Shown here: positions 16,524 to 60,759 of the stretch, one piece after another
Numbering within the stretch: position 1 is the stretch's first letter
How the letters are laid out: each line of letters opens with the position of its first letter
Assembly: GCA_014381825.1 (NCBI GenBank)
Contig: JACNKX010000114.1
Location: forward strand, 1-64,000
Source: Planctomycetota bacterium
GTDB taxonomy: Bacteria > Planctomycetota > Planctomycetia > Pirellulales > Pirellulaceae
DNA: 64,000 nucleotides
Direction of reading: 5' to 3'
The notes under the pieces: generated by a model
The model's input: only the letters and a program-made list of their open reading frames with translations
What the model was told of the DNA's origin: nothing
The model's database searches: none
Position numbers and translations under genes: made by a program

Positions 16524-16623
16524 GGAAGTGCTTGCACACCTGGTGGTGGCCCCGGTTTTCAAAACCGTTGGGAGTTGCGATAAACGCGGCTCCGGTGGGT
16601 TCGATTCCCATGCACTTCCGCCA
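16524..16623 (+). tRNA. selC: tRNA-Sec (anticodon UCA)
   Basis: A 100-nt selenocysteine tRNA. The acceptor stem is 8 bp (GGAAGTGC at 16524-16531 with GCACTTCC at 16612-16619), the hallmark length for bacterial tRNA-Sec, followed by encoded GCCA. The anticodon loop TTTCAAA carries TCA, which reads UGA. A long variable arm (GGAG-TTGCG / CGCGG-CTCC) and a T-arm (TGGG-TTCGATT-CCCA) follow. The gene implies that the genome makes selenocysteine; selA, selB and selD are not in this window. Candidate users are the two UGA-interrupted FG-GAP/ASPIC genes at 49736-52171 and 55468-57885. Confidence 0.95.
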
Positions 16624-49151: not shown

Positions 49152-49739
49152 TTAATAACCTCGCAAAGGAAATTCCAAGGCGCGTCGCGCGTTCTCATTC
49201 GCCGGGTCCAACCGTAGCGATTCGCGATAAGCGACCGCTGCTTCATCTTTTTGCTCCAACGCCAAAAACGCCGTGCCCAGGTTGCTGTAGGCGACCGACG
49301 AGTGTGGATCCAATCGCAACGCGACTTGCCCGTGTGCCAATGCTTCGATCACGCGTCCTTGGCCAAGCAGTCCCGAGACAAGTTCCGTCCTTACTTCCGC
49401 ATCTTTGGGTTGCAGCCGCACGAGCTTCTCCAACGTGCTGACGGCGGTAGCAACATCCCCCGCCTGACGAGCAGCCTGCAGCAGTTCACGGGCTGTCGTG
49501 TCGTTGTCGATGTCGATCTGAGCAGCCGCTTGCATCCAAGGAAGTGTCTGCTGATATCCTTCGTTCTCGAATGCCGTGCGGAGTTCACTGATGTACTCCA
49601 CGCCCACTCCTGGAATCGCATGATAACGCACCAGTGACCTGAAGATTCCAGCACACAGGGATGCCAAGAAGATTACGACGCTTAGCCAAAACACGAATGG
49701 ACCAGCCCTTGCTTTCAGACTGTCATATGCAGACATCAT
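49152..49739 (-). CDS. Membrane-anchored TPR protein
   Basis: A 195-residue protein with one N-terminal helix (about 13-32, GPFVFWLSVVIFLASLCAGIF) and about three TPR units (for example LEKLVRLQPKDAEVRTEL, ALRLDPHSSVAYSNLGTAFLALEQ). It probably sits on the outer face of the membrane as a scaffold. Its ATG overlaps the stop of the UGA-interrupted FG-GAP gene (ATGA at 49736-49739), so it belongs to the same operon and is translationally coupled to readthrough of that gene. Confidence 0.82.
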   Translation of the reverse strand: MMSAYDSLKARAGPFVFWLSVVIFLASLCAGIFRSLVRYHAIPGVGVEYISELRTAFENEGYQQTLPWMQAAAQIDIDNDTTARELLQAARQAGDVATAVSTLEKLVRLQPKDAEVRTELVSGLLGQGRVIEALAHGQVALRLDPHSSVAYSNLGTAFLALEQKDEAAVAYRESLRLDPANENARRALEFPLRGY

Positions 49740-52171
49740 TCATCTCGACCGGTTGGAATCATGGTGCCAGGCTGGACCGTCGAGATCGTGCCACCGGCCT
49801 CGTCGATCACAATGTGCCGATCGCCATCAAGATCCGTCAACTCGTGTACCGTACCACTGGGCCAGCGGACAATCAGTTTGTCCACGGTGTCACGATCGGC
49901 TAACCCGAAATGGACAAAGCTTGCTGCTTGCGAGTGAAAGGTGTTGGATGGATAGAGTTCACGGACGAGGCGACGGTCGCCTAAAACGACGGTCAGACGC
50001 GCACCGATCCCCAGGCTGTTGCTCTTGCTACCACGTAGCGAGACCTTGAGGTAACTCTGCATTGGAAAGTGATTCTCGAACAACAAGAGCGGCCCACCGC
50101 CCACTTGACGAACCAGCAGATCCATCTGGCCGTTGCCGCGAAAATCAGCCGCCACAACCGATCGTCCGTCGCCATCGGAATCGGACCCTGTGAGATAGCT
50201 GATGTCTGCGAACCGTCGATTCCCCAGATTGAGGAACGTCCGATTTCTTTCAAAGCCACTCAAGTTGTGGCGAAATGCGATCGTCCAAGGATCGTCCTCC
50301 CAGAACTCGCCAAGCTCCAAATCTGGCGCGGCCGGCGCACTGCAGGTGGCTGCCCGATCAAACGGCTGTGACACGACAGCCATCCAGAAGCAGTTTCACC
50401 CGTCAGGTTTGGCTCGCTCTTTACTCATGAAACCGCACGTGGCATGAATATCCAGCCAGCCGTCGTTGTTCAGATCGACGAGACGCGAGCCCCAGCCCCA
50501 GCCAACCGCGGCGATGTCGTCTCGGTTCTCAGTCGGATCGAATTTGCAGTCGCCTTGGTTGATATGCAACTGGCTGCCGGCAACCATGCGACGCAGCTTG
50601 GCCATCGTCGTGGTGTCGTAGAATTTCGACGATAGATTATCCATCACGCGGTTGCCCGCCTTCGAATACATATTCGATACGTACACATCAATGTTCCCAT
50701 CATTATCGACGTCACCGGAGGCCAAGCCCATCGATCCGAAGTCATCGGAATGCTCGGCGACTTGCTGCTGGGCGAACGTGCCGTCTTGCTGGTTAACAAG
50801 CAACGCACCCGCTCCGAATTCGTGAATGACATACACGTCCGGCCAGCCGTCATCGTTGGCGTCAAGCCAGTTGGCCGTAAAGGCTGAGCGTTGACCACCG
50901 CCAGCTCCGGCAGCTTTCGTTACATCTTCGAACATGCCGTTGCCCGTGTTGCGAAGCAATTGATTGTTTTCCGCAGCGCCACTCTTGCCGTCGATCCAAG
51001 AACCCTGATTGAATTGACTCACGTCGGCTCGCGTTATGTAAATGTCAATCAATCCATCACGATCGTAATCCACGACAGTGCCGCTGATTCCTTCGATCTC
51101 ACCCGCGATGATCAGTTGAGTGAGATTGCTGGCACGCGTTGCGTCCTGGAACTTCGCGCCGGAGTCGTTTCGGAAGACCGCGCGCCCTAGGAAGATCAGA
51201 TCCTCCCAGCCGTCATTGTCAATATCGGCAAACAGGGCATGGTCGGCACCAGGCAGCGTCGGCAGTCTGAGGTCATACGTGGCATCTTCGAAACGCCCGT
51301 CCGGCAGGCCACGATACAGGAATGTCGAGCGGATCGAAAGTGGCTCCGTGACTAAGACATCGGTGTAGCCATCGCGGTTGAAATCACACAAGTAGATGCC
51401 ACCCGTTCCCACGACTCGCGAGCCGGTTGTGGTTGTCCAGTTGTCGTGCAACGTACTTAGCAGCAACCCACGCTCAGCAGCGACTTCTCGCATCAACACA
51501 TCTTGCGATTTGGCGGAGTCGATTTGCGTGACTTCGCAGTTGGACCACCACCCCTCGGCATCAAGATTCTCCCGCTGGGGCTCGCTGATTGTAAAGTTGA
51601 ATGCGACGACGATCTCCCGAGGTTGTTGCTCATGCCTGCCACTGATCCGCAGGCGACATCGTCCGTTCCAGTCACCGGCGAGATCACTGCGTGACGTCGG
51701 TGCCAGCGACAGCGTGGCAAACTGCACCACGGGAGCGCTGTCAAACGCACTTCGGAGCGTTAGCAGCCACTCGATGAACTCGAAACGATGAAGCTCATGG
51801 GTCGTGCCGACACTTCGATGCAGCGAAATGAAGTCGTTTTCAAAGCGAGTTTCGGCGTGGGGCTCAGTAACGCTGCCGCGGAAATCAGCCGCCAGCGTCT
51901 TGACCAGTTCATCGCCCTGTCGCTGCTGAATTGCCTTGCTGATGGCGCGCCAGCCGTACTCACTGAGCACGTTGCCGTGGTGCTCGCATTCCCAAAGGAA
52001 CTCTCGTTCATCGTCGGGAAGATAGAGCGAACTCTCGATCGTTACGTTGGCCTGTGTTTCGCTGCCAGAGTCATCAAAAACCGGACTGCGACCGCGATAG
52101 AGCAACGAGGCAGCGACACACGACGTGATCGCCACGACACCAACCACGGTATATATGACGCGACCACGCAT
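49736..52171 (-). CDS. FG-GAP/ASPIC-UnbV protein with in-frame UGA (candidate selenoprotein B)
   Basis: An open frame of 811 residues if the single UGA at 50396-50398 (residue 592) is read as selenocysteine. Order: N-terminal membrane anchor or signal (about 5-25), a conserved unnamed domain (about 45-190, perhaps NTF2-like), FG-GAP/VCBS repeats (about 215-585; DFNRDGYTDVLV, DIDNDGWEDLI, DYDRDGLIDIYI, DVDNDGNIDVYV, DLNNDGWLDIHA), the motif AKPDG-U-N-C-F-W, and an ASPIC/UnbV domain (about 700-800; IGARLTVVLGDRR, LIVRWPSG). Without readthrough it would lack ASPIC. A SECIS-like hairpin follows the UGA. No ribosome site precedes the internal ATG 50383. Part of a five-gene operon. Confidence 0.8.
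50364..50381 (-). promoter_or_regulatory. Candidate bacterial SECIS hairpin in gene B
   Basis: On the minus strand a 6-bp stem GGCTGT / ACAGCC closes a six-base loop CGTGTC; it begins 15 nt after the UGA and the loop starts at nt 21, with G at its second position. It may extend by U-G and A-U pairs. The 18 nt are identical, at the same spacing, to the hairpin in gene A (57264-57281). Confidence 0.7.
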
Positions 52172-52287: not shown

Positions 52288-54099
52288 TCACATTCTCTTC
52301 CTCGCCGACGATGTCTTCAACAACTTTTGGACTCGGGGATCGTTCGGAGCGATTTTAACGACTCGGTCCAAGACTTCCTGCGCCTCGCTCAGCTTCCGTT
52401 GGGCTCTGTACGATATAACCGCACCAACATACCCAGAGGCATCCCAAGGCCGTCGCAGTATATGCCGTTCGAAGGACGCTAACGCAAGCTTCTCTTGCCC
52501 GCTGGAAAGATAGGCATTCCCCATGACGATCAATACGTTTTGCGTCATGCTTTCTAAAGTCTGATTGGGGAATAACTCCTGATCCACATGCGGCAACGCG
52601 GCGTAGGTCACCCGCCAACGGTCCTGCACCAGCTTAGCTTCCTCGTCGCGCCGTGACGACAAACGGAATGGCCAGACTCCAAGGATTCCAACGGTTTGTG
52701 CATCGGCGACCAGATGATCAAAGGGAGTTATCTGCAACAGACGATCACGTTGCTGGTCGTCTGGAAGCCGTTCAGCGTGCCAAGATTTTCCCAATACCTC
52801 CTCGACGATGCATTCTGCAAGAAATCTCGCCGCTTGCCAGTGGCCGTTCAGATTGTAGTGTACGTGCTCCAGGAATAGATCGCTTCCAGGAGCGGGAAAG
52901 CGAGACACGCCTTGGAATTGCGCCGCCACGTCACAGAAATGGACGCCAGCGGGCTCGTCGTTCGCCACTTCGCGGACGACGTTCGAGAACGAGCTTGGCG
53001 CGCGGAACCGGCAGCCATCTAAGTCTGCCGCGAGCGTATAGGCATCGGCGGCCTCCGCGTGACGTTCCAGTATTTCGAAACATTGTGCCTGACGGTAGGC
53101 GAGCAACGGATGAGTCGGGTCAACTCGGCGCGCCTCCGTCAACGTCTTCAGCGCAAGGTCGAACTTTTTGTACGAAAAGTGCCGCCTCGCTTCCTTCAAC
53201 TGTGAAGCTTGCTCGTCCGCTTCGCCCTCCGTTCGTGTCAATGAAGAATTTGTCTGCAAAGGACTGAGGTCACGAAGGTTGGATGGAACACTCGACAAGA
53301 CGATTGGAATTTGTGAGCGGTTCGCGATAGCAACGATCTTCTGCAGATTAGCACGGTATCGCGTCTGTGTGCTGTTGAAGACTTTCCCGTCCAACGGAAT
53401 GGCGATGTCCGCTGGCAGCGTTTCGATTAAATGTGAATCGGTTCGCCTAGGGATCATCGAGAGAGCCAGTTGAAATGATCGCTGCCGCCGCAGTGTCTGG
53501 ATAAGAGGGTAGAGTGTTGGCGTCAGGCTGCTCGACGTCGAAGCGGAGCCACCAGGACCGTAAAACTCGTTGTGACCCGAGTGGACCACGATCAAATCGG
53601 GGTTACAAGCGACTGCTTGCCGCACGACGTCGACTTCGCTGAAGCTGTTGATCGAGGTGATGCCCGCATTCAACACCTCGAACTGCATCTCGGGCAACTG
53701 CTGCCCGAGAATCACCTCTAGATGTCTCGGCAAAGCAAGCTCGAACGGGTAAGGAAATCCGGCTACCGTCGAACCACCAACGACAACGATGCGATAAGTG
53801 GACTCCGGCTTCTGTAGTTCAAACTGACGTGGTTCTGGGCCAGGCAAATCCTCCGGACCGTAGTAGGCTCGATCGACTGGTGCGTTAAATTCGTATGTCG
53901 TGGTTGAGGCAGCATAAGGCGCTTTTATCATCAGCCGTGTGTCGTATCCATAACCGAACAACCGCAGCGCAAGTTCCAAGAGAACGAACGGAGCTAAAGA
54001 GATGGAGATCGCCAACAACCGAAACAGCCACTTACGGCGTGATGAGATGCTGGTCCGAGAGTTAACCGTCGGCGAATCGCGTGCGTTATCCGAATTCAT
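52288..54099 (-). CDS. Membrane-anchored SGNH-hydrolase-like protein with TPRs
   Basis: A 603-residue protein: an N-terminal helix (about 27-50, LFRLLAISISLAPFVLLELALRLFG), then an SGNH/GDSL-like domain (IVVVGGSTVAGFPYPFELA in block I; INSFSEVD; DLIVVHSGHNEFYGPGG with N in block III; LEHVHYNLNGHWQAARFLA with the C-terminal D/H block) and TPR-like helices inside and at the end. Block I is G-G-S-T rather than G-D-S. ATG 54099 overlaps the cytochrome stop (ATGA), so the genes are coupled. Probably an extracytoplasmic sugar or lipid esterase. Confidence 0.78.
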   Translation of the reverse strand: MNSDNARDSPTVNSRTSISSRRKWLFRLLAISISLAPFVLLELALRLFGYGYDTRLMIKAPYAASTTTYEFNAPVDRAYYGPEDLPGPEPRQFELQKPESTYRIVVVGGSTVAGFPYPFELALPRHLEVILGQQLPEMQFEVLNAGITSINSFSEVDVVRQAVACNPDLIVVHSGHNEFYGPGGSASTSSSLTPTLYPLIQTLRRQRSFQLALSMIPRRTDSHLIETLPADIAIPLDGKVFNSTQTRYRANLQKIVAIANRSQIPIVLSSVPSNLRDLSPLQTNSSLTRTEGEADEQASQLKEARRHFSYKKFDLALKTLTEARRVDPTHPLLAYRQAQCFEILERHAEAADAYTLAADLDGCRFRAPSSFSNVVREVANDEPAGVHFCDVAAQFQGVSRFPAPGSDLFLEHVHYNLNGHWQAARFLAECIVEEVLGKSWHAERLPDDQQRDRLLQITPFDHLVADAQTVGILGVWPFRLSSRRDEEAKLVQDRWRVTYAALPHVDQELFPNQTLESMTQNVLIVMGNAYLSSGQEKLALASFERHILRRPWDASGYVGAVISYRAQRKLSEAQEVLDRVVKIAPNDPRVQKLLKTSSARKRM

Positions 54100-55250
54100 T
54101 CGTCGCCCGCCTGCGTCGCGTCGCTCCGATCGGCGCGCACGCGAATCCAATGATCGTGAAATTTGATGCCGCGGTGAATGTCGATGGCTGGCATGTGACA
54201 CTGGATGCAGTTCGTTTTTGGCGAGACCGGACAACGCGTGGGATTTGGTTCGCCATGACAGCTTAAGCAACGTTCGACGTAATGAGCGGCGTCGCGTGAG
54301 ACCGCTTGGTGTGGGTCATGACAGGTCGTACATCGCAAACGCCCTTCGCTTTCCGAGAAGCAACGGGACTGAAGAAGCCCGACGGATTGAAATCTGACAA
54401 TTCGAATGTCGTTCGGTGACACGTCCGCACTCGATTCGGAATGAGCGAGGCGATGGCAGCGGCCACACATCTCGACTTCCTCTCGCGCCGATTGCTGGGT
54501 GAGCCCCGTATATGCGTCCTCGGTATCGTTCTTCATCGCGGTCACGTGTTCACCGGCGGGACCGTGACAATTCTGGCATCCAACGTGTGGACTGAGGTTC
54601 TCGATTTGCTGCCGCACGATCTTACCTTGCGTTGTGTGGCATCCAACACATGATGTCAACTTGTCGCCGCGCAGGAGTTTTCCAAAGTGCTCGACTTCCT
54701 GCGTCGGCCTGTGCGCGCGGTGTCCTGGTGTTAAATCAAGGTCCCAGCTGTGCTGGTTCGGATCGTCTTTGTTCGAATACAGTGAAACTCGATGTTCGAT
54801 ACCGATCGTGTCTCCCAAACGGTCGGGGTTAAGTGACAGGAACGTAATCGCGTTTTGTCCCGAGCCCAAGAGGTAGGGAAGTTGAAAGTGATCATCGCCG
54901 AACTGCTTCGGAATCGAGACCGATAGCCCTGACGCTTCATCAAAGTGATACTCGTAGGCGTATGGTCGCTCTGGATCGTTGAACGTTTGCCCAGCCAGCC
55001 AGCGGGCGACATCTGACTCGGCGGTGAGTTGAAATGTGTTCGCGTGTCCACTGGCGCGATAGTCATTGGCCTGATCCGAGTGGCATTCCGCGCACACTCG
55101 CTCGGCCACATAGAGACTCTTGGTCACGGTAGAGATCGGCGAAGAATCTGACAGATTGCCAGCATCCAGGCCACGATACCACCTAACAACGACCGCAAGC
55201 AGGCTGATCGTCGCGACAATCGATAAAGTGTTCCGAACTCGACTTCGCAT
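54096..55250 (-). CDS. Multihaem (seven CxxCH) cytochrome c
   Basis: A 384-residue protein with an N-terminal membrane anchor (about 9-25) and seven CxxCH haem motifs: CAECH, CVGCH, CQNCH, CGRCH, CTTCH, CLSCH and CIQCH. Spacing and the ASGHANTFQ opening resemble cytochrome c554/c' -like multihaem proteins of planctomycetes. Located outside the cytoplasmic membrane, where it would move electrons. It leads an operon with the SGNH, FG-GAP/ASPIC, TPR and membrane genes, and is divergent from a second FG-GAP/ASPIC gene. Confidence 0.88.
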   Translation of the reverse strand: MRSRVRNTLSIVATISLLAVVVRWYRGLDAGNLSDSSPISTVTKSLYVAERVCAECHSDQANDYRASGHANTFQLTAESDVARWLAGQTFNDPERPYAYEYHFDEASGLSVSIPKQFGDDHFQLPYLLGSGQNAITFLSLNPDRLGDTIGIEHRVSLYSNKDDPNQHSWDLDLTPGHRAHRPTQEVEHFGKLLRGDKLTSCVGCHTTQGKIVRQQIENLSPHVGCQNCHGPAGEHVTAMKNDTEDAYTGLTQQSAREEVEMCGRCHRLAHSESSADVSPNDIRIVRFQSVGLLQSRCFSESEGRLRCTTCHDPHQAVSRDAAHYVERCLSCHGEPNPTRCPVSPKTNCIQCHMPAIDIHRGIKFHDHWIRVRADRSDATQAGDE

Positions 55251-55467: not shown

Positions 55468-57885
55468 ATGCAGTGTAGTACTGCTGCAGTTCTCGTCGTT
55501 CTCCTTGTCTCATGTCGTTCCAAAGACTCCACCTTGCCAGTAGTGCCTGCAGAAACGGGGCAGGTCCGCAATTCGCCAGAATCGGCAACCCTAGCGATTG
55601 AGAAGCAAGAGCACATTTGGGAGACCGAGCACGTCGCGTTCGAGTTGGAGCAGAAGTTCGGCAGGACGCTCAGCCGGGCGCTTCGGGAGCGCGATGGGGA
55701 CGCGATTCAAGCCTTCTGCCGTGACAGTTTTGAAGCTTGTCTCCCAAGTTCGGAAACGCATGCTCGACATGACCTCGGACACGTGGAAGAAGACCGCAAG
55801 GACGCTCTTTATGGCCCGGGCAGCGTACACGGCGCGGCGAAATTCGCGAATTATCTGCAAACATATTTCAAGCACTTCGATGAGATCGACAAGGTCACAT
55901 GCCGAGTGCTGGATCTGCACGCTGACAACAATGACACCAAGACGGGATATTGGGATGTGACTCTGTATCTGACTGGCGTCGGTAAGGATCGTCAGCAAGG
56001 ATTCCTTGAGTTCACGTCGGAGCACTTGCTTCGCTGCTACTTTACCAGCGACAAAGAAATCGAGATCGGGAAGATTCTCGACCGATGGGTCGTGGGCTAC
56101 GAAGTACGCCGGCGCGCGTCCAGTCCGCTGTTCGAGGAGGCCACCAAGCAGGCGGGCTTGGAGCAAATCGACATTCCCGATAACTGGACCGTCGCCCGAG
56201 ACAAGGTCCGTCAGTATCACACGCAAATGGCTGCCGCGGATTTCGATCGAGATGGCTTTTGTGATCTCGCGTTTGCCAGTTCGAATGGCCGTTGGCGTCT
56301 TCTGCGATCCATTGCAGGGGAGAAATTTGAAGAAGTGACAGACGAGTGCGGGTTGCCGGTTTGGGCTGATGAAGAGCCTCGCTCGCGGAGTGTCCGCGAT
56401 CAGGTGTATCTCGCAACATGGATTGACTTCGACAACGATGGCTACCCTGATTTGATTCTGGGAGACCGTCTTTACCGAAATCAGGAGGGTCGTCGTTTCG
56501 AAGATGTGACGGACCGATCAGGGCTCGTATTTGGCTACAACCCCCGAGGTTTGGTCGTCGCTGATTACGACTGTGACGGTCGGCTCGATCTGTACGCCCT
56601 TTACCAGCTTCCGAGGACAACGAATCGCGACGGAGCGCCCGGCTGGGTCGGAGACGATGAGACCGGCTTAGAGAATCATCTCTGGAGGAATATGGGCGAC
56701 GGTCAATTCGCGAATACGACGGAACTCTCCAACGCTGGCGGCGGCAAGCGTCAATCGTTCGCCGCTTCCTGGTTTCATGCAACTGATGACCACTATCCGG
56801 ACCTCTACATTGCCAACGACTTCGGAACGAATGTCCTGCTGATCAATCAGGGCAATGGAAAGTTCCGTGATGGCTCGCGGGAAGCAGGCGTTTCGGACTA
56901 CGCGACGAGCATGGGCGTGGCCACGGGAGATCTAACGGGAGATGGTCACTCAGAGATCTATGTCGCCAACATGTTCTCAAAAATGGGGCGGCGGATCATC
57001 GCTCATGTTGCCGCCGACGATTATCCGGACGGAATCTTTCAGCAGATCCAAGGTTCTTGCGCGGGGAATCGGTTATACACCGCGGACGGCGGCGAAAGCC
57101 GCTATCAGGAAATCAGCGAGGATTCCGGCGTGAATCCTGTTGGTTGGGCGTACGCGCCGGCGCTGGCTGATTTCGATAGCGACGGACAGCTGGATATCTA
57201 TGCGACAACGGGCTTTCTTAGTTTCGAACGCAGCAAGCCCGATGGCTGAACGTGCATGTGGCGGGCTGTCGTGTCACAGCCACTTGATCGAACATCGCAA
57301 ACCGAGCAGCTTGGAGAGATTGATGCTGCGGCCGGCGAGTTCTGGGTTCGGTCCGTGTTCCAAATGCCGCAGCTCGGGCATAACCTCAGCGCCTTCGAGG
57401 CGAATCGCCTGTTCATGAATGTCGATGGCCAGCAGTTCCTCGACGCGTCGTTCGCATCGCAAGCGAACATCGATTCCGACTCTCGCTCAGTGATCGTTGG
57501 CGATATAGACGCGGATGGAGACGTCGATCTGCTGGTTGGCTCGGTTGGTGGAGGCCCAGTGCGGATATTCCTGAATCACATTCCCACAGAACACCACAAA
57601 GTTCGAATCGAGTTGCAAGGGACGAGTTCGAATCGAGCGGCGATTGGCGCGCGAGTCGTCTTGCGTTGTGGGGCGAAGACCATCACGCGCGATCTGTTTC
57701 CTGCCAACGGATTTATGGGGCAGAGCCCCGCCGAGTTGTTGGTTGGAGTTGGACAAGCGACAACGATCGATCGTCTCACGATCCGCTGGCCGAACGGAGA
57801 ATTGCAAGAGCTGGAAGATCTGCCAGTCGATCAGAACACTCAGATCGTCGAAGGTCGAGAAGGCTATCAGTCGGTCAGCTTCTGA
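55468..57885 (+). CDS. FG-GAP/ASPIC-UnbV lipoprotein with in-frame UGA (candidate selenoprotein A)
   Basis: An open frame of 805 residues if the single UGA at 57247-57249 (residue 594) is read as selenocysteine. ATG 55468 gives a lipoprotein signal (STAAVLVVLLVSC); starts upstream would run through a palindrome. Order: unnamed N-terminal domain (about 45-200, as in gene B), FG-GAP/VCBS repeats (DFDRDGFCDLAF, DFDNDGYPDLIL, DYDCDGRLDLYA, DFDSDGQLDIYA), the motif SKPDG-U-T-C-M-W, then the ASPIC/UnbV domain (IGARVVLRCGAKT, LTIRWPNGELQ). Paralogue of gene B, with U at nearly the same residue number. A SECIS-like hairpin follows. The 3' end overlaps the convergent TPR gene by 19 bp. Confidence 0.8.
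57264..57281 (+). promoter_or_regulatory. Candidate bacterial SECIS hairpin in gene A
   Basis: Stem GGCTGT / ACAGCC with loop CGTGTC, starting 15 nt after the UGA; the apical loop begins at nt 21, similar to the spacing in formate dehydrogenase mRNA. All 18 nt equal those of gene B (50364-50381), although four codons immediately 5' of the UGA differ in wobble bases. Confidence 0.7.
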
Positions 57886-58922: not shown

Positions 58923-60677
58923 TTATTCTCGTCCACTTCCTTCAACCAAACGCCACAAGCGATTCTCCCCCAGATCATTCCATGACTCACGTCGCTCGCC
59001 AGGCCATGTAACCGTAACCTCGCGTACCTGATCTAACGAGCCAAGACCTATCAACATGGTCCTCTCATCGCAGGAAAGGTAACTTCCTCCGGCTTGGACG
59101 GTACGAATGAGCACTCGATCACCAAGATCGATTTGCAATGTCGCGCCGACACCATCGCGATTGCTCGTAATGCCAACCAACTCGACCCGCAACTGCCCAC
59201 CAATCTCTTTGGCATCGTTCTGTAACAGGGCCGTCTTGCTGTTGAGCTGGTTGATGGCGACATCCGAATCACCGTCTCGATCGTAGTCCGCGATCGCTGT
59301 TCCGCGGCCAACGTGTGGCTCGCGAAAGTAGTGGCCGGAAGATGCAGAGACATCTCGAAGCCGCGATCCACGCTCGTTGTAGAAGACTTGCGCTAGCTGC
59401 GCAAACGATCCGTTGCGGCCAATCTCCTGCAAACGGTCGTGAATGTGCCCGTTGGCGGCGAGCACATCAAGCCAGCCGTCGTTGTCAAAATCAGCGAATG
59501 AAACGCCGAATGCCAATCGTGGTCGACTTGATGCTCCAAGTCCCATCTCATCCGTGACGTCTGAAAACAGAAGATTTACCTCGTTGCGATAGAGCGTGTT
59601 CGTTTCGTCGTAGAAGTTCGTGATGAACAAATCCAACTGACCGTTGCCGTCAACATCTCCAACTGCCAAGCCCATGCTGGCCTCCCGGGCACCATGCCGA
59701 TTGGTTGACGTGCCGGAATCCGCGCCGCGATCGGTGAATTTCCCGTTACCGCGGTTCTCCCAGAGGTAATTTGGTGTCGTATCGTTGGCCACATAAAAGT
59801 CTATGTCACCGTCCTGATCTAAGTCTGCGGCGATGACCCCGAGACCCTGACGGCCTTTCCCTTCCGCGACCCCGGCAGCCTTCGATATCTCAACGAATTG
59901 GCCGTCGCCTGCATTGCGGTACAGCAGGTCTGGCATTCTGTCCAACTCATTAGGATGACACGCGATGTGAATTGTCTCGTCGGCTGCTGTATGTTCACAA
60001 ATGGGATAGTCTTCAGGGCCAAGTTTTGAGTAGTTGGTGATGTACAAATCGATATTTCCATTCGCGTCGACGTCACCCCATGCGCAGCTCGCACTCAAGC
60101 GTCCGGGGGAAGATTGTTGCGGGATTTCGACCGGCGTAAGAGTGCCATCCCCGTTGTTGTGGAGAAGGGTATTGGCGTGGTAGCCAGTCACGCACAAGTC
60201 GGCGAAGCCGTCGTTATCGTAGTCCGCGGATGCGATCCCCATTGAGTAACGAGTGTCGAGTAATCCAGCTTGACGTGTGACTTCCGAAAATGTTTCGCCT
60301 TCGCGGTTATAGAACAACGCATTGCTGGGCAGCTCTTCGTTCGAGTCGCCATCGAACGAAGCACCCTGACAGCAATACAGATCCGGCCAGCCATCGTGAT
60401 CAAGATCGAACCAACCGATGCCCGACCCCATCACCAGGTGAACATGACGTTGCTCGGTGAGCGGAGAGTAATGACGAAAGCGTAACCCCGTGGACTTGGC
60501 GGCATCGACGAATCGGAAGGGTCCGACGGACAATTCATCCGGTCGCGGTGACGCGGTGGAAGTCCGCGTTTGGGCAACTCCATTCTGCCGCTTACCGTTC
60601 GGAGAATCCGCGCCTGAGCAGCCAACAACCAGGACGATGGCAACAGCGATCCAAATTCCCCTGACACAGGAAAGCAC
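58923..60677 (-). CDS. FG-GAP/ASPIC-UnbV (CRTAC1-like) lipoprotein
   Basis: An uninterrupted homologue of the two UGA genes, 584 residues from GTG 60677 (GAGAGG six bases upstream); GTG 60704 is the longer alternative. The lipoprotein signal ends VVLVVGC. FG-GAP repeats: DLDHDGWPDLYCC, DYDNDGFADLCV, DVDANGNIDLYI, DLDQDGDIDFYV, DVDGNGQLDLFI, DFDNDGWLDVLA, DYDRDGDSDVAI; ASPIC/UnbV domain at the end (GVGATLQIDLGDR, VTVTWPGE). At the place of the PDG-U-x-C-x-W motif it has the ordinary NGHIHDRLQ loop. Exported, possibly Ca2+-binding; function unknown. Confidence 0.88.
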   Translation of the reverse strand: MLSCVRGIWIAVAIVLVVGCSGADSPNGKRQNGVAQTRTSTASPRPDELSVGPFRFVDAAKSTGLRFRHYSPLTEQRHVHLVMGSGIGWFDLDHDGWPDLYCCQGASFDGDSNEELPSNALFYNREGETFSEVTRQAGLLDTRYSMGIASADYDNDGFADLCVTGYHANTLLHNNGDGTLTPVEIPQQSSPGRLSASCAWGDVDANGNIDLYITNYSKLGPEDYPICEHTAADETIHIACHPNELDRMPDLLYRNAGDGQFVEISKAAGVAEGKGRQGLGVIAADLDQDGDIDFYVANDTTPNYLWENRGNGKFTDRGADSGTSTNRHGAREASMGLAVGDVDGNGQLDLFITNFYDETNTLYRNEVNLLFSDVTDEMGLGASSRPRLAFGVSFADFDNDGWLDVLAANGHIHDRLQEIGRNGSFAQLAQVFYNERGSRLRDVSASSGHYFREPHVGRGTAIADYDRDGDSDVAINQLNSKTALLQNDAKEIGGQLRVELVGITSNRDGVGATLQIDLGDRVLIRTVQAGGSYLSCDERTMLIGLGSLDQVREVTVTWPGERRESWNDLGENRLWRLVEGSGRE

Positions 60678-60759
60678 TTTGTCCCTCTCGAAGATTCCCC
60701 TCACTCAGTGCTGATTTAGTCGTGCGATTCGCATGCAACCTTACTGCCTCGCAGACAAC

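Follow-up and report, generated by a model that had tools for sequence, protein, structure and literature searches.

An apparent selenoprotein family on a CRTAC1-like propeller in planctomycetes and related bacteria

Results

Two genes of one family with an in-frame UGA

The window, which is the whole stretch of DNA analysed here (64,000 nucleotides, positions 1 to 64,000 of contig JACNKX010000114.1, assembly GCA_014381825.1, from a member of the Pirellulaceae), contains two genes, A and B, each of which has a single internal TGA in its reading frame (Table 1). When the two proteins, which are 31% identical, were aligned, the TGA was found to lie at the same codon in both, within a common motif, KPDG-U-xCxW-xAVVSQP. 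Domains of the FG-GAP and UnbV/ASPIC families (PF13517 and PF07593) were found over the Pfam cut-off in both genes, and no NCBIfam family was over the cut-off for either of them. An earlier reading of the same DNA, made from the letters alone (the sequence-only reading), had proposed gene A as a candidate selenoprotein after noting that its frame was open but for one TGA, that the ASPIC/UnbV domain was encoded after this codon and that the residues flanking the UGA were alike in gene B; the coordinates of the frame, the position of the domain and the likeness of the flanking residues were all confirmed. The terminal stop of gene A is itself a TGA. The N-terminus of its product is lipoprotein-like, as judged by eye and without a prediction tool. 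A third copy of the family is present in the source genome, on another contig (C227).

The neighbourhood of these genes was also examined. Between genes A and B there is a GDSL-like hydrolase (below the Pfam cut-off) which is fused to TPRs (52288-54270). Cytochromes like the multihaem protein encoded next to gene A were found beside five other family members (L056, L076, L077, L058 and L060), and none was found beside the near orthologue L075. A general link between the family and cytochromes was considered and rejected, as open reading frames with at least three CXXCH motifs were near only 10 of 41 genes (genes A and B share one of these, and some of the stretches were short). The cytochrome neighbour is limited to the clade of gene A.

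Table 1 Features of the window, and the Cys-bearing paralogues found in other genomes.
Feature	Position	Strand	Basis
tRNA-Sec, anticodon tca	16524..16623	+	ARAGORN; Rfam RF01852, 67 bits (gathering 47) at 16524-16619
Gene B, second putative selenoprotein of the family of gene A	49736..52171	-	Pfam and alignment to gene A
UnbV/ASPIC domain encoded after the UGA in gene B	49814..50011	-	63.1 bits
SECIS-like hairpin in gene B, identical to that of gene A over its 18 letters	50364..50381	-	Alignment row
UGA codon of gene B, putatively read as Sec	50396..50398	-	Aligned with the UGA of gene A
Multihaem cytochrome of c type with 7 CXXCH motifs, divergent to gene A	54096..55250	-	
Gene A, putative FG-GAP propeller/UnbV-ASPIC selenoprotein, 805 residues, Sec as residue 594	55468..57885	+	ORF reading and Pfam
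UGA codon of gene A, putatively read as Sec	57247..57249	+	Homologue column
SECIS-like hairpin of gene A, GGCUGU, loop CGUGUC, ACAGCC	57264..57281	+	Pairing, covariation, synonymous constraint
UnbV/ASPIC domain encoded after the UGA in gene A	57640..57840	+	72.1 bits, Pfam
FG-GAP/ASPIC paralogue, ordinary, without internal UGA (for comparison)	58923..60704	-	
Cys-bearing (one Gly) paralogue clade	L101:9513-10652; L253, L262, L265, L267		Motif DYCTRYWCHDVY in L101

Sec machinery of the source genome

The absence of selA and selB from the genome would have spoken against the proposal. Both were found, selA (565 bits) adjoining selB (352 bits) on contig C59, together with selD (345 bits) and the tRNA-Sec of Table 1, all of which scored above their cut-offs. 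The selD gene, located at G000:C135:32266-33192 (L251), also has one TGA inside. Both strands were read and the frame was picked by eye; the UGA in this frame sits in the motif CAG-U-AGK. As this matches UxxK, the SelD motif given in Table 1 of PMC1​3188914, it is most likely that SelD, a selenoprotein already known, is also made with Sec at a UGA in the source organism. A second selD-like gene (284 bits), without a stop, was found on contig C45.

Conservation of the UGA across the family

We searched 117 relative genomes with a profile of genes A and B, scoring up to 16 candidates per genome, and found matches in at least 42 genomes at E 1e-30. The 150 rows listed comprised 42 over 340 bits, which we call group 1, and 108 under 255 bits, which we call group 2. 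Among the matches listed, the column of the putative Sec (U) contained TGA in 41 of the 42 group-1 genes, genes A and B included. The only exception, L093 from genome G019, has GCC (Ala) at this position and has lost the Cys as well. A 43rd row, above 250 bits, was the truncated end of one of the counted genes, and four group-1 rows had an extra TAA or TAG beside the TGA, which we took to be terminal stops without verifying each singly. Group 2 consists of longer proteins, and one TGA was found inside each of the 108 rows listed. For this group 40 regions were examined, giving 51 rows at E 1e-30; 3 of these were short of the U column, and TGA was present in 47 of the 48 which reached it (46 directly and one with an alignment slip of one column), the other being a Cys paralogue.

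A search of named GTDB contigs gave 547 relatives, of which the best 80 were used; these are partly the same genes as those in groups 1 and 2. All 82 rows above 150 bits which reached the column in this set of the best 80 of 547 had TGA (82/82), no Cys homologue was found among these 82 rows, and 10 further rows above 120 bits fell short of the column. The same UGA was found in a complete chromosome, CP036526.1 (K23_9), and in CP011806.1 (Acidobacteria bacterium Mor1). Other family contigs, among the best 80 of 547, were labelled Verrucomicrobiales, Akkermansiaceae, Gemmataceae, Isosphaeraceae and Phycisphaeraceae.

It should be noted that frames were split at TAA and TAG when read, so these two stops could not be detected at the column in the profile-based counts. 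A codon-agnostic DNA pattern was a separate source of counts: over 392 genomes of the phylum it gave 16 matches in 10 genomes, 3 of them in the source genome, and its reversed control gave no matches in the same 392 genomes. TGA was present in 15 of the 16, the other was TCG and unrelated by eye, and there was no TAA or TAG. Because TGA occupies the site in 41/42 group-1 genes, 47/48 group-2 rows and 15/16 codon-agnostic matches, its position is not due to chance. Ordinary stops or random codons in homologues would have refuted the sequence-only reading; relatives instead keep the UGA at the codon of gene A in each of these sets and in the named contigs.

The region after the UGA appears to be under at least as much constraint as the region before it. 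Eight pairs of genes were compared, two of which were dropped for a saturated synonymous rate; in the 6 usable pairs, which share sequences, dN/dS was 0.06-0.13 after the UGA vs 0.11-0.19 before it, and was lower after it in all 6.

Cys, Gly and Ala forms

Homologues with Cys at the position of the putative Sec, a further check suggested for the proposal, do exist: they are 4 genes from two genomes (G110 and G079), and they form a separate paralogue clade. One gene of this clade, L267, has Gly at the column; it belongs to G079, which has four copies of the clade. The motif at the site is DYCTRYW in the Cys clade vs DLUSFFW and DGUTCxW in the UGA genes. A scan of the examined loci for further Cys forms gave 5 raw matches, only the L101 gene (two overlapping rows) being a real counterpart.

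A tree was built from 41 rows, comprising a random 18 of the 41 group-1 and 18 of the 47 group-2 UGA rows, together with the row with Ala and the 4 Cys genes; L267, which has Gly, was left out. The Cys genes made up one side of a branch (support 100/100). The Ala gene was nested in group 1 (94/93), which is what a loss of Sec would give, and its lineage seems to have lost Sec. The root is not known, and long branches caution against rooting.

Co-occurrence with SelB

SelB was found over the cut-off in 65 of the 117 genomes. Among the matches listed, the family was present in 38 of the 65 genomes with SelB vs 4 of the 52 without it (Fisher: P = 5.7e-9; counts were tallied by hand and shared ancestry was not corrected for). 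Three family genomes without SelB over the cut-off (G004, G036 and G065) have a tRNA-Sec of 65-69 bits, and because of this we read the gap as one of assembly, selB probably being missing from these assemblies. In 49 genomes without SelB over the cut-off, the Ala gene of G019 was the only relative spanning the site among the matches listed. The best tRNA-Sec score in G019, which has no selB match, was 50.7 bits, above the Rfam gathering threshold of 47. We read this as another tRNA and not as tRNA-Sec, since second-best matches in two Sec-using genomes score 47-49.

A SECIS-like hairpin after the UGA

A short hairpin follows the UGA in both groups: GGCUGU-CGUGUC-ACAGCC, 14 nt after the codon, in group 1 and GCGACA-GGUCG-UGUCGC, 11 nt after it, in group 2. 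Stem cells were paired in 98.8% of cases in the 41 rows of group 1, where 3 cells were changed on both sides (compensatory), and in 98.6% of cases in group 2, where 5 were. None of 500 shuffles reached the values of either group for paired cells or for two-sided cells. Two other measures were reached more often, the number of pair types in group 1 by 16/500 shuffles and the number of pairs with two-sided changes in group 2 by 22/500. When the pairing partner was slid by +2 or +3 in group 1, covariation was 0.082 or 0.072 vs 0.057, yet only 37% or 65% of cells then paired. When the 45 bases which follow the UGA were folded, the minimum-energy structure contained the full six-pair stem in 33/41 group-1 and 34/47 group-2 rows.

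Synonymous constraint was seen at the same place. In group 1, codons +6, +7, +8 and +10 after the UGA were represented by one codon in 95-98% of rows. Among background columns the most uniform reached 0.68 where codons are 4/6-fold degenerate (64 columns) and 0.82 where they are 2-fold degenerate (63 columns); codons +2 and +11 were at background level. That this hairpin is a SECIS-like element is strongly supported by these comparisons of sequence, with no data on SelB binding. The loop of the group-2 hairpin resembles that of E. coli fdhF. Two group-2 proteins (L131:4577-4624 and L118:4496-4543) appear to have a hairpin of the group-1 type with the loop CGUGUC, which would mean that the SECIS type had switched in situ.

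A hairpin, GCGCA-GGUCG-UGCGC, also forms downstream of the selD UGA in a local fold of 26 bases. Its loop, GGUCG, would be common to SelD and the group-2 element, a likeness that is only suggestive because the hairpin is absent from the minimum-energy fold of 51 bases.

We also counted the group-2 SECIS pattern, allowing up to 2 mismatches, and found 23 matches each in G006 and G065, 12 in G071 and 10 in G092. Over all 117 genomes, 6 matches were obtained with the reversed pattern as control. These are pattern matches and not verified genes. Of those in G065, the assembly of which is fragmented, three have 2 mismatches and two are at contig starts.

Predicted structure and domain architecture

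The predicted model of the gene A protein (pLDDT 85.9, pTM 0.89) was best matched by murine CRTAC1 (9etn; Z 39.5, rmsd 2.6, 454 residues aligned), and aldos-2-ulose dehydratase was also among its structural matches (Z 23.4). Below rank 1, the Foldseek rows were for the most part large proteins of propeller or repeat type, for which the rmsd was poor. One weak Foldseek match was to the NTF2-like ketosteroid isomerase fold (E 8.7e-4, aligned range not shown), from which we infer that the N-terminal part of the modelled protein looks NTF2-like.

In this model some 65 residues (582-646), among them the putative Sec at 594, separate propeller strands 576-581 and 647-651; pLDDT at residues 581-650 is 66-81. 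Positions which are invariant in the 41 group-1 rows include D592, G593, U594, C596, W598, P605, E624, W626, N639, L640, S641, E644 and N646. The U-x-C motif, which the sequence-only reading had called redox-like, is present in all 41 UGA rows of group 1. It is absent in group 2, where the site is mostly U-S-x-x-W without the second Cys, and the redox idea was widened here to a group fused to thioredoxin. A WxxxCxxC motif was found about 260-290 residues after the putative Sec in 36 of 47 group-2 proteins, with 11/47 lacking the motif as searched, and in 4/4 of the group-2 proteins scanned Pfam placed a Redoxin/AhpC-TSA domain (PF08534, PF00578) and TPRs downstream.

Discussion

The Sec machinery, the conservation of the UGA, the dN/dS values and the SECIS-like hairpin support the proposal that gene A encodes a selenoprotein, since those refuting results which could be looked for in sequence did not appear. 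From the sequences we are close to certain that the UGA codons of genes A and B are decoded as Sec. The joint claim that the two proteins are Sec-decoded and are also redox selenoenzymes is one we hold to be likely; the redox reaction is inferred, and there are no selenium or protein data.

The following mechanism may be proposed. SelB with its Sec-tRNA would read the UGA as Sec, guided by the short downstream hairpin, an inference from sequence which has strong support. The protein would be exported or lipid-anchored, to judge from its N-terminus, and would consist of a seemingly NTF2-like N-terminal part, followed by a CRTAC1-type propeller of FG-GAP repeats and, at the C-terminus, an ASPIC domain, with the stretch 582-646 around the Sec as the putative redox active site. 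Sec may pair with the Cys two residues on in group 1 (U-x-C), and in group 2 (U-S-x-x-W) it may be re-reduced by a thioredoxin-like CxxC domain of the same chain, which most members carry. In the clade of gene A alone, electrons could be exchanged with the multihaem cytochrome encoded alongside, and neither substrate nor cofactor has been identified. The product is probably an extracytoplasmic selenoenzyme on a CRTAC1-like propeller, a thiol/selenol oxidoreductase by an inferred reaction. This redox reading rests mainly on the thioredoxin-like fusion of group 2 (WxxxCxxC in 36/47).

That Sec is inserted as a metal ligand or structural residue, and not as a redox centre of the thiol type, is unlikely but remains a serious possibility. 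Aldos-2-ulose dehydratase, matched by the model, has an active-site metal according to the title of its entry, the propeller has many Asp-rich repeats which we take to be of the calcium-binding kind, and group 2 has no second Cys. However, a purely metal-binding or structural role sits poorly with the thioredoxin-like CxxC in most group-2 proteins, with U-x-C in every group-1 UGA row and with the use of Cys at the site in a separate clade.

A UGA codon can always terminate in part, and without protein data a programmed stop may be imagined, in which the UGA usually terminates to give a truncated propeller and is occasionally passed by ordinary read-through, Sec having no role. We consider this very improbable, as it is opposed by the association with SelB, by the hairpin with its synonymous constraint, by a dN/dS which is no higher after the UGA than before it and by the lack of TAA or TAG among the 16 codon-agnostic matches.

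Almost no weight can be given to the synthesis of two polypeptides by a stop at the UGA and a restart at the ATG at 57256, 7 bases after it. Such a restart is unlikely because Met is found there in only 7 of 41 homologues, and it would also leave out the invariant Cys and split the propeller. The sequence-only reading had placed a conserved Cys and Trp at or before this ATG, which is correct for the Cys; the Trp is the codon just after it. Finally, most of the genomes are metagenome assemblies by title, but a sequencing error, a pseudogene or a reassigned UGA codon can practically be ruled out by the same UGA in CP036526.1 and CP011806.1, by the occurrence throughout the family of a single UGA at a single codon, by the TGA which ends gene A and by purifying selection.

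Returning to Sec-decoded redox enzymes, we favour, with reservations, the wider view that these proteins make up a class of extracytoplasmic selenoenzymes which is new and is built on a CRTAC1/integrin-like propeller, the catalytic Sec being placed between two blade strands and served by a second Cys or a fused thioredoxin. By the SECIS-pattern counts there would be some 20 or more paralogues in some Planctomycetota, making the class a main selenium sink, and it would also occur in genomes labelled Verrucomicrobia and Acidobacteria. To our knowledge this would be the first selenoprotein family on a CRTAC1-type propeller. If the view is correct, one unrecognised family is a main selenium sink in some Planctomycetota, and more selenium would be needed in the phylum than is known so far because of members present in many copies, two genomes having 23 SECIS-pattern matches each. 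Ordinary gene calling is expected to cut such genes at the UGA, from which we infer that many family proteins are present in databases as fragments. The family also provides a clean test case, with two SECIS types with frozen codons, a Cys clade and a lineage which is seemingly without Sec by loss.

Judging by title, we found no published selenoprotein with UnbV, ASPIC, FG-GAP or CRTAC1 in open-licence PMC papers, the only ones covered. Table 1 of PMC13188914 (2026), which contains 119 prokaryotic selenoprotein families by the paper's own count, has no FG-GAP, ASPIC, UnbV or CRTAC1 family, and a word search of its main text gave none. This would appear to be a large selenoprotein family of planctomycetes and related bacteria which is not found in the published catalogue. 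It may have been overlooked because the method of PMC12013277, according to that paper, may miss families without Cys homologues. The same paper gives a bacterial record of at least 46 selenoprotein genes over all families, with which the 23 pattern matches of this one family in each of two genomes may be compared. Sec use in planctomycetes is described in PMC4807772, the only directly relevant paper that was found on these bacteria, the accessible text of which names other proteins.

Three known systems can be compared with this family. CRTAC1 and other ASPIC-UnbV (PF07593) proteins with FG-GAP (PF13517) have the same propeller and C-terminal ASPIC domain as gene A; unlike CRTAC1, the family of gene A has a UGA, putatively Sec, between two propeller strands and an extra N-terminal part, and group 2 adds a thioredoxin-like domain and TPRs. 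We know of no enzymatic activity of CRTAC1. The thioredoxin-like proteins of the TlpA/Redoxin type correspond to the domain fused downstream in group 2; here, unlike in those proteins, the thioredoxin-like domain would be a partner domain, and the putative Sec sits in the propeller. With the bacterial selenoproteins that depend on SelB and SECIS the family shares selA, selB, selD, tRNA-Sec and a hairpin that follows the UGA at a distance of 11 nt in group 2 and of 14 nt in group 1, and it differs from those already known in being absent from the 119-family table of PMC13188914 and in having up to 23 SECIS-pattern matches per genome.
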